DNA of 64,000 nt, from positions 62,001 through 126,000 of the forward strand of contig JAUQVX010000002.1 of the NCBI GenBank assembly GCA_039794565.1, read 5' to 3'. The stretch comes from Gloeomargarita sp. SRBZ-1_bins_9 (GTDB taxonomy: Bacteria; Cyanobacteriota; Cyanobacteriia; Gloeomargaritales; Gloeomargaritaceae). The notes below the pieces were generated by a model. That model had not been told where the DNA came from. It made no database searches and saw only the letters and a program-made list of their open reading frames with translations. The position numbers were made by a program, and so were the translations under genes. Positions 49,741 to 54,329 of the stretch are shown here, piece by piece (position 1 is the stretch's first letter; each line of letters starts with the position of its first letter).

Positions 49741-49812
49741 GGCTCAGTAGCTCAGCGGTAGAGCAGGGGACTCATAAGCCCTTGGTCGTGTGTTCAAATC
49801 ACACCTGAGCCA
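49741..49812 (+). tRNA. tRNA-Met (CAT), elongator-type
   Basis: The acceptor stem GGCTCAG (49741-49747) pairs with CTGAGCC (49805-49811), discriminator A. The D arm is GCTCAGCGGTAGAGC, the anticodon loop CTCATAA, and the T arm GTGTGTTCAAATCACAC. The anticodon stem GGGGA/GCCCT has an A31-G39 mismatch and a G-T pair at its base. The first pair G1-C72 rules against initiator. A tRNA-Ile with lysidine (CAT) cannot be fully excluded. Confidence 0.92.
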
Positions 49813-49899: not shown

Positions 49900-50344
49900 C
49901 TACAGTTGCCGGCTTTGACGGAGCACCACCGCCCCAGGGACCTGGATACGCCGCTCCCCCTCGACCAGGGGTAGAACTAGGGTCAAGGGTTGGTTCAGGG
50001 GTAGCACTCCCACCAAAGGCCGCAAGTTGTATTGCCCCACGTTGGTAACGGTCTCGGCTTTGGAAAAGTCATCCGCCGCCTCCCAGGTGGAACCCCAGGC
50101 GCAAAGGGTCAGGATGGCGCAGGTGATAGCGCTCAGGAAACCCCAGCAGGCGCAGTTGCAGTTGTTGTCGCCGGGCAAACAGCACCACCTGCCAGGCCCA
50201 ACCGGCGTCGTCTTCGAGGGTGTGTCGGGATGGCACCAGCACCTGGCCGGGTACCTCGTCAAAAGTGCGAATAAAGGCCTGCCCCGGCAACGCCCAACTC
50301 CACAGGACCATCAGCAACAGCCCCAACACCAGCCAACGTTTCAC
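49900..50344 (-). pseudogene. DUF3122 family secreted protein, broken by one frameshift
   Basis: The first part, from the ATG at 50342-50344, has a signal peptide (VLGLLLMVLWSWALPGQA) and DUF3122 sequence (EVPGQVLVPSRHTLEDDAGWAWQVVLF, LQLRLLGFPERYHL), then runs into TGA after LGFHLGGGG. The second part continues one frame over (WEAADDFSKAETVTNVGQYNLRPLV, then LTLVLPLVEGERRIQVPGAVVL) to a stop at 49900. Skipping one G within GGGAGGCGGCGG (about 50080) restores a single frame. It ends the minus-strand operon with the ArsR gene; its start overlaps the stop of the haem-protein gene by four bases. Confidence 0.8.
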
Positions 50345-50901
50345 GAACCCGCTGGCTTCTGGGGAATCACCACTTCGTACATCCCCCGCAGGTCCCCCAC
50401 CCGGAAGTCATAGGCTAGGTCCTGGGGGTAGTTGTTTTTCACAAAAGCCGGCCGCGCCTCCTTGGGGCCATGACAAGCCAAACAACTGGTCTGCACATCA
50501 ATCCGCCGGAAGTAGTACACCGCTTGGTCATCCTGCTGCCAAAAAGCCTGCACATCCGGGTGCTCCTGGAATTCCGCCAGGGCTTGTTCTTCGCGGGTGT
50601 TTTGGGGTCGGTGGTTGGGGTTGCGGTACTTCAGGGCCACCTGGCGCACCTGCCACCCGTGGGTCTGGCCAATCTCCTTGGACCGCCTCCCCACCGGCGC
50701 GCACACCTGCTGAAACGTCTCCAGCGTTGGCTCCTGGGCGCGTCCCTCCAGCGTACTGGCCAAGCCCACCCGCATCTGGTCCAATTGCTCAATGGCAGTC
50801 ACCGCCTCCCCCAGTTCCGTGGGGTTCACCATGGCCCACGCCGGCTGGAACCATCCCCCCAGCAGCCCCAGCAGCAGAGCCAACACCATCAGTCCTCGCA
50901 T
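50341..50901 (-). CDS. Tll0287-like (DUF3365) c-type haem protein
   Basis: A 186-residue exported protein. The signal peptide (MVLALLLGLLGGWFQPAWA) precedes a domain with ETFQQVCAPVGRRSKEIGQ, VALKYRNPNHRPQNTREEQAL and the haem motif CLACH in SCLACHGPKEARPAF. Thermosynechococcus Tll0287 is a c-type cytochrome with a PAS-like fold and this architecture; a redox-sensing or electron-transfer role is likely. Its start overlaps arsR by 13 bases, placing it under the same control. Confidence 0.85.
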   Translation of the reverse strand: MRGLMVLALLLGLLGGWFQPAWAMVNPTELGEAVTAIEQLDQMRVGLASTLEGRAQEPTLETFQQVCAPVGRRSKEIGQTHGWQVRQVALKYRNPNHRPQNTREEQALAEFQEHPDVQAFWQQDDQAVYYFRRIDVQTSCLACHGPKEARPAFVKNNYPQDLAYDFRVGDLRGMYEVVIPQKPAGS

Positions 50902-51230
50902 GAAGCACCCCCTTCCTGGGCCTTTTGGGATAAATGGGTTAATGACTCGATACACATCTGGAAACAACGGGGGTCGGCCAGGAAATAAAGGCGGTTGTTG
51001 CCCTCCTTGCGACAAGCCACTAGACCCCCTAGACGCAACACCTGCAGGTGCTTAGAGACATTAGCCTGGCTCAAACCGGTACGGGCGCTCAATTCCCCCA
51101 CACTGACCTCCCCCCGTTGCCCAATCCACCAGAGCAATTGCAAACGACTCGGGTCCGCCAGCAACTTGAAGAGGTCCGCCAGGCGTTCCACATCCGGCAT
51201 CGTCCCCGTTGGTGGGATACCTAGACCCAT
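50889..51230 (-). CDS. ArsR/SmtB family transcriptional repressor
   Basis: A 113-residue winged-helix regulator: ADLFKLLADPSRLQLLWWIGQRGEVSVGELSARTGLSQANVSKHLQVLRLGGLVACRKEGNNRLYFL. Cysteines in LVACRKEG, in the C-terminal helix (PRCFQMC) and near the end (ASCED) could bind a metal(loid) or sense thiol oxidation. It lacks the alpha2 CxC site of ArsR/SmtB and the alpha2 cysteine of BigR/SqrR, so the ligand is unknown. It lies ten bases after the SQR-like pseudogene. The palindrome at 52519-52532 is its likely operator. Confidence 0.9.
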   Translation of the reverse strand: MGLGIPPTGTMPDVERLADLFKLLADPSRLQLLWWIGQRGEVSVGELSARTGLSQANVSKHLQVLRLGGLVACRKEGNNRLYFLADPRCFQMCIESLTHLSQKAQEGGASCED

Positions 51231-51240
51231 CGTGCCCCCC

Positions 51241-52490
51241 CTAGGAAGCTGCCGGTTGCTGCTGCGGAGCCACCGCCTGGGACAACTCCAGACCAAACAG
51301 GAGACGCAGCCCCCACTTTTCCATCGCCGGCATACCCACCCCCAACCGCATCTTAGCAAGAAAGTACTGCTCAAAGACCGCCTTGGCCCAGTTGACCCAC
51401 ACCCCCTGCACCGCATAGGCATAACGGCGTTGACCTGTTTGGGGGTCAGGTAGCACCGGCGCGGCCACATAGCCAATCCCCGTTTCCCCGTACTCGGCAA
51501 AACAGAGAGCCTCTAGCGTCGGCACCTGCATTGGTCCGGGGATGGCCCCCAGGGCAACGGCAATGTTGTGGGCTGCCACCACCGCCATGGCCTCCGTCAT
51601 CTGACCACTTTTGGGCAGTCCAACGGGAACGGGTGTTTTGTCCGGCTGGTCCAGGTGCACCGCCACCCCCACGCCGTAGATATTCGGGTACCGGGGATGC
51701 TGGAGCGTGGGCAACACCGGTAAAAACCCCCGTTCATTGCCCAGGTCCGAAGTCCGCACAAAGTCCGCCCCCCGAAACGCCGGTAGGATCATGCTGTAGG
51801 CAAAGGGAAAACACCGTCCGTCGGCAAGCACCACCTGAATCGCCGCATGGGTCACCGTTTGGATGCCCCGCCGCCGCATCAGGCCTTCGGTCAACTCGCG
51901 GGCGTTTTTCACCCCTGACACCCCCAAGTGACCGATGTAGGGTTCCGGCGTGATGTAGGAATTTGCACCCGCTCCCGTAGGCCATGACGCCGCAACTCCC
52001 GCTCCGCCAACAAAACAAATTCGTAGACCGGTCCAAAAAACCTGCCCCCGGCGCTGCTGCCACCACCAGGTCCCCCGGTTGTTCTAAATACCGCTGCCAA
52101 GCTGCCCGCGCCGCCAGCCCATGATTGGCCATGCAGATGGAGTGGGCATGCACCCCTAACCCCGGCACCAGCTCCATGGCCAACCCCGGTCCACTGGCAA
52201 TCACCAAATAGTCATAAGGTAGCTCCTGCGCCGCCGTGTACGCCCGCTGAGCTTCAGGGTCCACCCGCACCACCGCGCCTTCTACCCAACCAAACCATAC
52301 GGGCTAAGTCCAACTGGATACGCTCCAACGGCGTCAACCCCAAAGCCACCTGCACCAACCCGGGAATAAACGCAAACTGGGGCGATGCTGACACCACCGT
52401 CACCCGATGCCGCCGCCCCAATAGATGTCGCAACTCATAGGCCGCCGGTAAGCCCCCTAGCCCGGCCCCAATCACCACAACCTCCGCCAT
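51241..52490 (-). pseudogene. Sulfide:quinone oxidoreductase-like flavoprotein, three frameshifts
   Basis: The restored protein (about 415 residues) starts VVVIGAGLGGLPAAYELRHLL (FAD motif), with FAFIPGLVQVALGL, YDYLVIASGP, FFGPVYEFVLLAEREL, TPEPYIGHLGVSGVKN, and a C-terminal VQGVWVNWAKAVFEQYFLAKMRLG typical of SQR-family enzymes. Three frame changes interrupt it: an extra G at about 52286, a missing T in a T6 run at about 52033, and a missing T at about 51960. An intact GGAGGAGG precedes the ATG. An active gene would feed electrons from sulfide to quinone. Either a recent pseudogene or sequence errors; the SQR subtype is not assigned. Confidence 0.82.
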
Positions 52491-52508
52491 CGCCCTCCTC
52501 CAACATAC

Positions 52509-52538
52509 TTGACCTTATTAACTAAATAGTTATATATT
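52509..52538 (+). promoter_or_regulatory. Divergent promoter with palindromic operator
   Basis: TTGACC (52509-52514) and TATATT (52533-52538) are spaced by 18 bases. The perfect palindrome TAACTA-AA-TAGTTA (52519-52532) fills the spacer, ending one base before the -10. This AT-rich block stands out in the GC-rich region. Bound ArsR dimer would block RNA polymerase for the ferredoxin-chrA genes and probably for the divergent SQR-arsR operon. A ribosome-binding AGGAGG for the ferredoxin gene follows at about 52557. Confidence 0.6.
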
Positions 52539-52572
52539 CATTTTGGGTGATACTGTAGGAGGTGGTCGAGGG

Positions 52573-53130
52573 ATGGTGGTCAGTCGCAGGAAAAGGCGCT
52601 ATGGCAAGCCCAGTCAGTGGGGGATGGTGTGGTTATTTTTCCTGATTGCCGTTGGCGGGTTATTTCAGCCCCTGCTGGGGTACCTAATGCTGGCGATGAT
52701 GTTGTTTATCCCGTTTGAGGCCTATTTCCACGGGCGGTACTGGTGTGGCAATTTGTGCCCGCGGGGGGCGTTTTTGGATATTTTCCTGGCGCGGGTCAGT
52801 CCCCGGCGTCCTTATCCTCGGCTTTTTCGCAGCAAGTTGTTGCGCTGGGGAATTTTTGTGCTGGTGATGAGTGGGTTTGTGGTGCGCCTGAGCTATGCCT
52901 GGGGTGATTGGCTGGCGGTCGGCGGGGTGTTTGTGAGTATGTGCGTGGTCACGTCCACCGTGGCTATTGCCCTGGGGTTGACCTATAACGAGCGGGCCTG
53001 GTGTGCCATTTGCCCGATGGGGACGCTGCAGGAGTCCATTGCCAAGTTGGGGCCAGCTACCCGCAAGCAGCGCCAACCCGCAAAATCCACTCAAGCTCTA
53101 CCGGCAGCAGGGGAGGTGGAGGAGACATGA
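52573..53130 (+). CDS. Polytopic 4Fe-4S membrane ferredoxin (NapH/CcoG-like)
   Basis: About 185 residues with four membrane helices. Two cysteine motifs are visible: WCGNLCPRGAFLDIF at residues about 57-72 and WCAICPMGTLQESIA at about 147-161. These are the CxxxCPxG and CxxCPxGxLQ loops of NapH, NosR and CcoG relatives, so it should hold iron-sulfur clusters near the membrane face and pass electrons to or from quinol. The final three bases overlap chrA (ATGA). It is not a complete NapH. Confidence 0.85.
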   Translation: MVVSRRKRRYGKPSQWGMVWLFFLIAVGGLFQPLLGYLMLAMMLFIPFEAYFHGRYWCGNLCPRGAFLDIFLARVSPRRPYPRLFRSKLLRWGIFVLVMSGFVVRLSYAWGDWLAVGGVFVSMCVVTSTVAIALGLTYNERAWCAICPMGTLQESIAKLGPATRKQRQPAKSTQALPAAGEVEET

Positions 53131-54329
53131 CGGCTGAGCAGCTCCAGCGCCCCTTGCGTCTGCCGGCTATGGTCTGGACGTTTTTGAAGTTAGGGTCCCT
53201 TGGGTTTGGCGGGGGCATGGCCATGATTGCCCTAATGGAGATGGAGTTTGTCAAAAGGCGGCGTTTGATCGACATTGAGGAGTTTATCCACGGGGTGGCC
53301 CTGAGCCAAATCCTGGGGTCGTTCCCGGTGAATGCGGCCTTTTTCATCGGCTATCGGCTGCACCGGTGGCTGGGGGGGGTGCTTGCTGGCCTGGCGTTTC
53401 TGTTGCCGTCGCTTGCCGCAGTCATCCTGCTGTCTTGGCTCTATTTCACTTACCACCACATGCCGTTGTTGCAGGCGATGCTCGACAGCATGGCGCCAGT
53501 GGTGATGGGGATCCTTGTCACCATGGCCTGGGGGATGAAAAGGCGGCTGGTGCATTCGCCGTTGGTCTGGGCGCTGGTCCTATCCGGTTGCCTAGGCAGC
53601 GTCGCTCGGGTCAATCCCCTGGCGTTGCTGGGAGGGGGTGGTCTGCTGGGCTGGTGGCAAAGGATGAATACGTCCCATCGCCCCCGAAAACACCCCCAGC
53701 CGGGACCAACAGCGGTGGTGGTGGGTGTGCCCTTGGCAGCTCAACTGGTGCCCCACGGAGCTGTTGGGACGATGGTGACATCGGTGCCGTTGGTGACCCT
53801 AGGCTGGACGTTCCTCAAGGTGGGGCTGGCCTTTTTCGGTGGGGGGGTTGTGCTCATCCCGCTGCTGAAGCAACTGGTGGTGGACCGGCTCCACTGGCTG
53901 ACCATGCAGGAGTTCATTGATGGGGTGGCCATCAGTCAACTCATGCCGGGGACGATTGCGGTGCTGGCCACCTTTGCCGGGTATCGCCTGGGGGGATTGC
54001 CGGGTGCCCTGGTGGCTACAGCCGGACTGTTTTTGCCGTCGCTGGTGCTGATGACGTTTCTTTCCCAGTTCTACAGCCAGTTCCGCCACCTGGAAAACGT
54101 CAAGCATTTCCTGGCGGGAGTCAACCCGGTGGTGGTGGGGATGGTGATGTCGGCGGCCATTTACCTGGCCCCCACGGTGTTTCCCCTGCAGGAACCGGGG
54201 CGATTGGTCCTGAACGTGGCCCTGTTTGCGCTGACGTTGGTGATGGTGGGGCGTGACAAGCGGCATCCGGCCCTGGTGCTGGGTATAGGGGCGCTCACGG
54301 GGGCAATTTACGGTGCCATCGCCGGCTGA
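53127..54329 (+). CDS. chrA: Chromate transporter (ChrA), two CHR domains
   Basis: A 400-residue membrane protein with duplicated CHR halves: FLKLGSLGFGGGMAMIALM with EFIHGVALSQILGSFPVNAAFFIGYR in the first, and FLKVGLAFFGGGVVLIPLL with FIDGVAISQLMPGTIAVLATFAGYR in the second. The family exports chromate or carries other oxyanions such as sulfate. It starts inside the stop of the membrane ferredoxin gene, an unusual pairing, and argJ follows six bases downstream. Confidence 0.93.
   Translation: MTAEQLQRPLRLPAMVWTFLKLGSLGFGGGMAMIALMEMEFVKRRRLIDIEEFIHGVALSQILGSFPVNAAFFIGYRLHRWLGGVLAGLAFLLPSLAAVILLSWLYFTYHHMPLLQAMLDSMAPVVMGILVTMAWGMKRRLVHSPLVWALVLSGCLGSVARVNPLALLGGGGLLGWWQRMNTSHRPRKHPQPGPTAVVVGVPLAAQLVPHGAVGTMVTSVPLVTLGWTFLKVGLAFFGGGVVLIPLLKQLVVDRLHWLTMQEFIDGVAISQLMPGTIAVLATFAGYRLGGLPGALVATAGLFLPSLVLMTFLSQFYSQFRHLENVKHFLAGVNPVVVGMVMSAAIYLAPTVFPLQEPGRLVLNVALFALTLVMVGRDKRHPALVLGIGALTGAIYGAIAG

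Follow-up and report, generated by a model that had tools for sequence, protein, structure and literature searches.

A degraded, rearranged suo-type locus with a broken sqr gene and a NapH-like gene in the DUF302 position in a cyanobacterial genome

The closest described system is the suo locus on plasmid pSYSM of Synechocystis PCC 6803, in which suoS-suoR and suoC-suoT are arranged divergently. In the account of Nagy et al. (2014) given in PMC4307280, SuoR binds the promoter shared by these operons and represses both; passages of the same source identify SuoS as a type I sulfide:quinone oxidoreductase (SQR), assign SuoT a role in arsenite transport and leave SuoC without a known function. SuoT is described as an arsenite importer in a passage of PMC5061849, which also places arsR next to many cyanobacterial sqr genes. 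A 2024 paper reports, in its description of type I sqr clusters, adjacent arsR and chrA genes in Gloeomargaritales (PMC11304991), which are probably the lineage of the genome described here.

Gene content and relation to the suo locus

We analysed positions 49900-54329 of a 64,000-nt stretch of DNA (the window), reading both strands and assigning domains by Pfam and NCBIfam scans. Outward from a divergent promoter, the minus strand carries a broken sqr, arsR, a Tll0287-like gene and a broken DUF3122 gene. The plus strand carries a Fer4_5/NapH-like gene that overlaps the following chrA in an ATGA at 53127-53130. The features are as follows:

49900-50344, minus strand: DUF3122 gene, not intact, with a deletion near 50105-50096 that shifts its frame (PF11320 matched in two frames)
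50341-50901, minus strand: Tll0287-like (DUF3365, sCache_heme) c-type haem protein gene, intact (PF11845 and alignment to 5B82)
50889-51230, minus strand: ArsR/SmtB-type repressor gene (suoR homologue), intact, with some doubt as to the exact start codon (profiles and alignment)
51241-52490, minus strand: sqr (suoS homologue), type I SQR pseudogene (match to the intact SQR of same-genus genome G002), with pieces at 52490-52302, 52288-52040, 52037-51960 and about 51960-51241 in three frames
52519-52536, unstranded: putative SuoR/ArsR operator in the divergent promoter, TAACTAAATAGTTATATA (palindrome statistics and conservation)
52573-53130, plus strand: NapH-like/Fer4_5 small membrane protein gene, 185 aa, loops CGNLCP and CAICP, at the DUF302 (suoC) position
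53127-54329, plus strand: ChrA-family transporter gene (suoT homologue), intact (PF02417, TIGR00937)

The original prediction that one ArsR-type repressor lies between divergent operons and that the SQR, redox carriers and ChrA form one set was borne out, every gene it named being found at about the expected position. The neighbours of the island are ordinary genes, namely crtH, msrA, tRNA-Met (49741-49812) and argJ (from 54336). In the related genomes G003 and G004 the sequence differs after this tRNA, and argJ lies on another contig or in another place, so the island appears to occupy a variable junction. Flanking direct repeats that would indicate att-mediated integration at the tRNA were sought and none was found.

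The best plasmid match of the window ChrA is the pSYSM chrA product (53.7% identity), whose gene neighbourhood reads DUF3122–DUF3365–ArsR–SQR (FAD oxidoreductase) // DUF302–ChrA; the window has the identical order with one substitution. The two loci share the divergent layout, homologous SQR, ArsR and ChrA proteins, DUF3365 and DUF3122 genes downstream of arsR, and an operator-like motif in the same intergenic region. They differ in that the window has a NapH-like gene for DUF302 (SuoC), that its sqr and DUF3122 are pseudogenes, and that its island, flanked by tRNA-Met and argJ, is part of a 354-kb contig that also carries core genes. An ArsR-family repressor corresponding to SuoR and a SuoT-type ChrA in the divergent operon are present in the window; a functional SQR (SuoS) next to arsR and a SuoC (DUF302) in the divergent operon are not. 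With SuoS broken and SuoC absent, the island retains only two of the four Suo proteins, which counts against a suo reading. The clusters of PMC11304991 resemble the island in that ArsR and ChrA adjoin sqr; the passages describing them differ in mentioning ArsA/ArsB as well, and in mentioning neither a NapH-like nor a Tll0287 protein. In the same genus, G002 has the order chrA-DUF302 // sqr-arsR-Tll0287-DUF3122 with an intact sqr, and G006 has sqr-arsR-Tll0287 // chrA.

Judged by gene content and order, the island is a degraded, rearranged form of a known kind of locus, in which linked redox genes stand under one repressor. The pSYSM order, the same-genus loci and the cluster descriptions in PMC11304991 rule out an undescribed system, for which the island had been put forward as the best candidate, and identify it as a form of the known cyanobacterial suo locus. 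What is new here is the decay of sqr, the NapH-like gene in the place of DUF302, and an operator-like palindrome that recurs upstream of sqr elsewhere.

The operator-like site and linkage across cyanobacteria

The repressor matches HTH_5/HTH_20, scores above the cut-off of the NCBIfam ArsR/SmtB model and is 53% identical to the pSYSM ArsR, with one Cys that does not vary among the six sequences aligned. The core of the putative operator TAACTAAATAGTTATATA is a perfect 6-2-6 palindrome in the divergent spacer, a palindrome for which the expectation in shuffled windows is zero, and the core is the sole match in the 2.22-Mb genome at up to one mismatch. The corresponding putative operator AACTANNTAGTTATA is exact in G002, G006 and pSYSM, and within two mismatches it is found upstream of sqr at 18 of 34 other loci (reversed pattern, 1 of 34). 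A match to this sqr motif at L053 (genome G291) lies near a Tll0287 gene that stands alone and is remote from sqr, which suggests co-regulation at a distance.

We surveyed linkage in 386 cyanobacterial genomes, among which the order of the window species is represented by eight. Matches to the SQR fragment were found in 35 genomes, to Tll0287 in 38 and to the NapH-like protein in 4. SuoT-type ChrA (E<=1e-60) is present in 4 of the 386, all of which also have a type I SQR; the hypergeometric chance of this overlap, which ignores kinship, is about 6e-5, or about 6e-4 without the window's own genome. Gene order was read in about 16 kb around each of the 34 other sqr loci, where Tll0287 is present at 14, DUF3122 at 14, ArsR at 19 (within two genes of sqr at 11) and a divergent DUF302 at seven. 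At, or one gene past, this DUF302 lies an SBF/ACR3-like transporter in six of the seven, which fits an arsenite role, and ChrA in G002. From these counts, the conserved linkage in other genomes that had been proposed as a check on the prediction is confirmed for the core genes SQR, ArsR, Tll0287, DUF3122 and ChrA.

At L103 and L104 (also at L093, L096 and L099) sqr-arsR continues into a gene for a small conserved protein, a rhodanese gene and HlyD-like and AcrB-like efflux genes. At L192:9444-13154 (G287) a SuoT-type chrA clusters with an ICMT-like gene and a permease gene whose product weakly resembles SaoE; sqr and Tll0287 are on the same contig.

Decay of sqr and DUF3122

Aligned to the window, the intact SQR of G002 (locus L072) falls into four pieces spread over three frames (residues 1-63, 73-155, 157-182 and 183-416), with 66-76% identity. 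About 14 bp are missing at the first junction, near 52301-52289; the second frame change, near 52039, falls on the conserved middle Cys codon, a further one occurs near 51960, and there is in addition a 6-residue in-frame deletion. Of the three active-site Cys of type I SQR, the fragments retain the outer two (HSIC, EALCF). The middle one, for which relatives have GAGCFGP and the phmmer alignment to the 3SZ0 group shows a homologous Cys, is lost at the frame change, and the window has no intact type I SQR frame with three active-site Cys. Within the same operon, two frames of the DUF3122 gene match PF11320 positions 1-67 and 70-128, with a loss of about 11 bp. In about 10 kb of flank aligned to G003 and G004 (78-80% nucleotide identity), crtH, msrA and argJ are full length, and gaps that would break a frame are either intergenic or offset one another. 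The window genome has no second type I SQR, its remaining matches being generic flavoproteins of 24-31% identity. The fragments are 73.6% identical to the G002 SQR and the intact G006 protein is 76.4% identical to it, so the loss looks recent.

By the state of its reading frames, the window sqr is a pseudogene. The prediction of a flavoprotein with quinone-type features was right as to its SQR-like nature and is corrected to a type I-like SQR in pieces across three frames; that it is being lost is upheld by those frames, the lack of a second type I copy and the intact flanking genes.

The adjacent Tll0287-like gene remains in good order. Its product matches PF11845 (3e-30) and PDB 5B82 (4e-73) with the CxxCH motif and the upstream Cys (VCAPVG) conserved, as in the Tll0287/sCache_heme family (5B82; PMC12889525), with which it shares the stand-alone domain, CxxCH and second Cys and from which it differs in being encoded in an sqr operon. 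For stand-alone sCache_heme members, redox-related roles have been assigned in general terms only (PMC12889525). Unlike that of the window ChrA, its divergence is not accelerated.

The transport operon and alternative readings

The window ChrA is a member of the ChrA/CHR transporter family (PF02417, 3e-80; TIGR00937, 221 bits against a cut-off of 171.7) with two Chromate_transp stretches. It is 48-58% identical to SuoT-type proteins, and those of G002, L143, pSYSM and G252 are mostly 66-73% identical to one another. This greater divergence means that its substrate may have shifted, although relaxed constraint may equally account for the rate. Export of an oxidised oxyanion product, as originally envisaged, found no support, the characterised relative SuoT being described as an arsenite transporter. 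The window genome also encodes a second, different ChrA paralogue (G000:C9:20301-21404).

The protein encoded upstream of ChrA matches PF12801 (2e-15) and has two Cys-containing membrane loops (CGNLCP and CAICP), as do the Fer4_5 membrane ferredoxins NapH/MauN and CcoG. It differs from them in lacking C-terminal 4Fe-4S ferredoxin domains (a ferredoxin domain or motifs were sought in its 185 residues and none was found), in scoring far below their cut-offs (21.5 bits with the NapH/MauN model, cut-off 213 bits) and in having no Nap or Mau partner genes beside it. A genuine NapH is ruled out by that score and the missing ferredoxin domain; of the 4Fe-4S membrane ferredoxin first proposed, there stands a Fer4_5 membrane protein with Cys loops. 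In a scan of named genomes its relatives were found in Thermosynechococcus (55-65% identity), in one Pseudanabaenaceae MAG (L143, 70%) and, at about 50%, mainly in Omnitrophota; a plasmid search returned no relatives, and a sequence search no solved structure.

The L143 locus reads Tll0287–ArsR–SQR // NapH-like–DUF302–ChrA–ICMT-like methyltransferase, with an internally shortened DUF302. In Thermosynechococcus-like genomes the NapH-like gene adjoins the same ICMT-like gene by ddl, and SQR–Tll0287–DUF3122 lie elsewhere. A general partnership of the NapH-like protein with SQR is excluded by its occurrence in 4 of 386 cyanobacteria and the lack of linkage in these genomes. Its pairing with ChrA, predicted to be non-standard, is indeed rare and yet has a precedent in the second linkage in L143. 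DUF302 was not found in the window locus or genome (G000), nor in G095, G185 or G252. Because G006 has no DUF302 beside chrA and no detectable NapH-like gene, replacement of the one by the other is at most weakly suggested. It is rather improbable that the NapH-like protein takes over the function of SuoC as a membrane electron carrier to which ChrA/SuoT transport is coupled, and that the lineage thereby kept a redox-coupled transporter under ArsR control when sulfide oxidation was lost.

Drawing on the observed gene content and order, decay, operator-like site, homology and linkage elsewhere, we consider that the island very probably descends from a suo-type, ArsR-repressed arsenite/sulfide stress locus that has lost its sulfide branch and been left with a NapH-like/ChrA transport module. 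In the mechanism that we infer, ArsR (SuoR) would silence both operons from the operator between them until a thiol-reactive signal (arsenite or sulfide/polysulfide) inactivated it and lifted it from the putative site. In the ancestor, plastoquinone would have received electrons from sulfide through SQR, aided by two accessories, the exported Tll0287 redox haem protein and DUF3122, and on the other side ChrA/SuoT would move arsenite or a related anion. SuoC (DUF302) would have gone, with the Fer4_5 membrane protein, a possible electron-transfer component, in its place. With the sulfide branch (sqr and DUF3122) apparently dead only recently and the repressor, operator, haem protein and transporter retained, no more than the repressor, haem protein, NapH-like protein and ChrA could still be at work.

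That the whole island instead died with the SQR, its remaining genes being merely unbroken so far and without current function, is somewhat unlikely. Both sqr and DUF3122 are broken, most same-genus genomes lack the locus and the ChrA branch is fast, all of which would be expected; but arsR, the Tll0287 gene, the NapH-like gene and chrA have open frames that preserve their motifs (CxxCH, Cys loops), the operator-like palindrome is exact and Tll0287 has evolved without acceleration. Quite unlikely, too, is a repurposing of the NapH-like protein and ChrA as a redox-coupled transporter of anions of the chromate, sulfite or thiosulfate class, with the arsenite link gone. The ATGA overlap, the adjacency of the NapH-like gene to a DUF302/chrA pair in a second lineage (L143), the acceleration of the window ChrA and the absence or internal shortening of DUF302 in the examined NapH-bearing genomes would suit it. 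Against it, the NapH-like gene of Thermosynechococcus-like genomes is a neighbour of ddl and not of ChrA or SQR, ChrA in L143 is an ordinary SuoT-type protein, and the Omnitrophota relatives of the Fer4_5 protein adjoin unrelated genes. Sequencing or assembly errors in an otherwise intact suo operon are a very improbable source of the sqr breaks, for although the fragments (55-77% identical to intact SQR) are not visibly degraded, the two deletions of about 14 and 11 bp and the 6-residue in-frame deletion, in two genes of one operon, go beyond one-base slips, and crtH, msrA and argJ on both sides align full length with relatives.

The finding that SuoC, the Tll0287 haem protein and DUF3122 accompany type I sqr and an operator-like site, and that a locus with a membrane Fe-S-type protein can lack SuoC, supplies concrete partners to test. 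A cyanobacterium that is losing sulfide oxidation and keeping the arsenic-type half of the locus also bears on the gain and loss of anoxygenic photosynthesis, a capacity that is patchily distributed.

Outside the window island, a gene for an ICMT/PEMT-like membrane methyltransferase adjoins a SuoT-type chrA or lies close to it in four genomes (L072:4962-5450, L130:830-1321, L143:10077-10571 and L192:12642-13154), and in Thermosynechococcus it directly follows the NapH-like gene. The enzyme is weakly similar to the methanethiol S-methyltransferase MddA, and may act as a partner that methylates thiols or sulfide.
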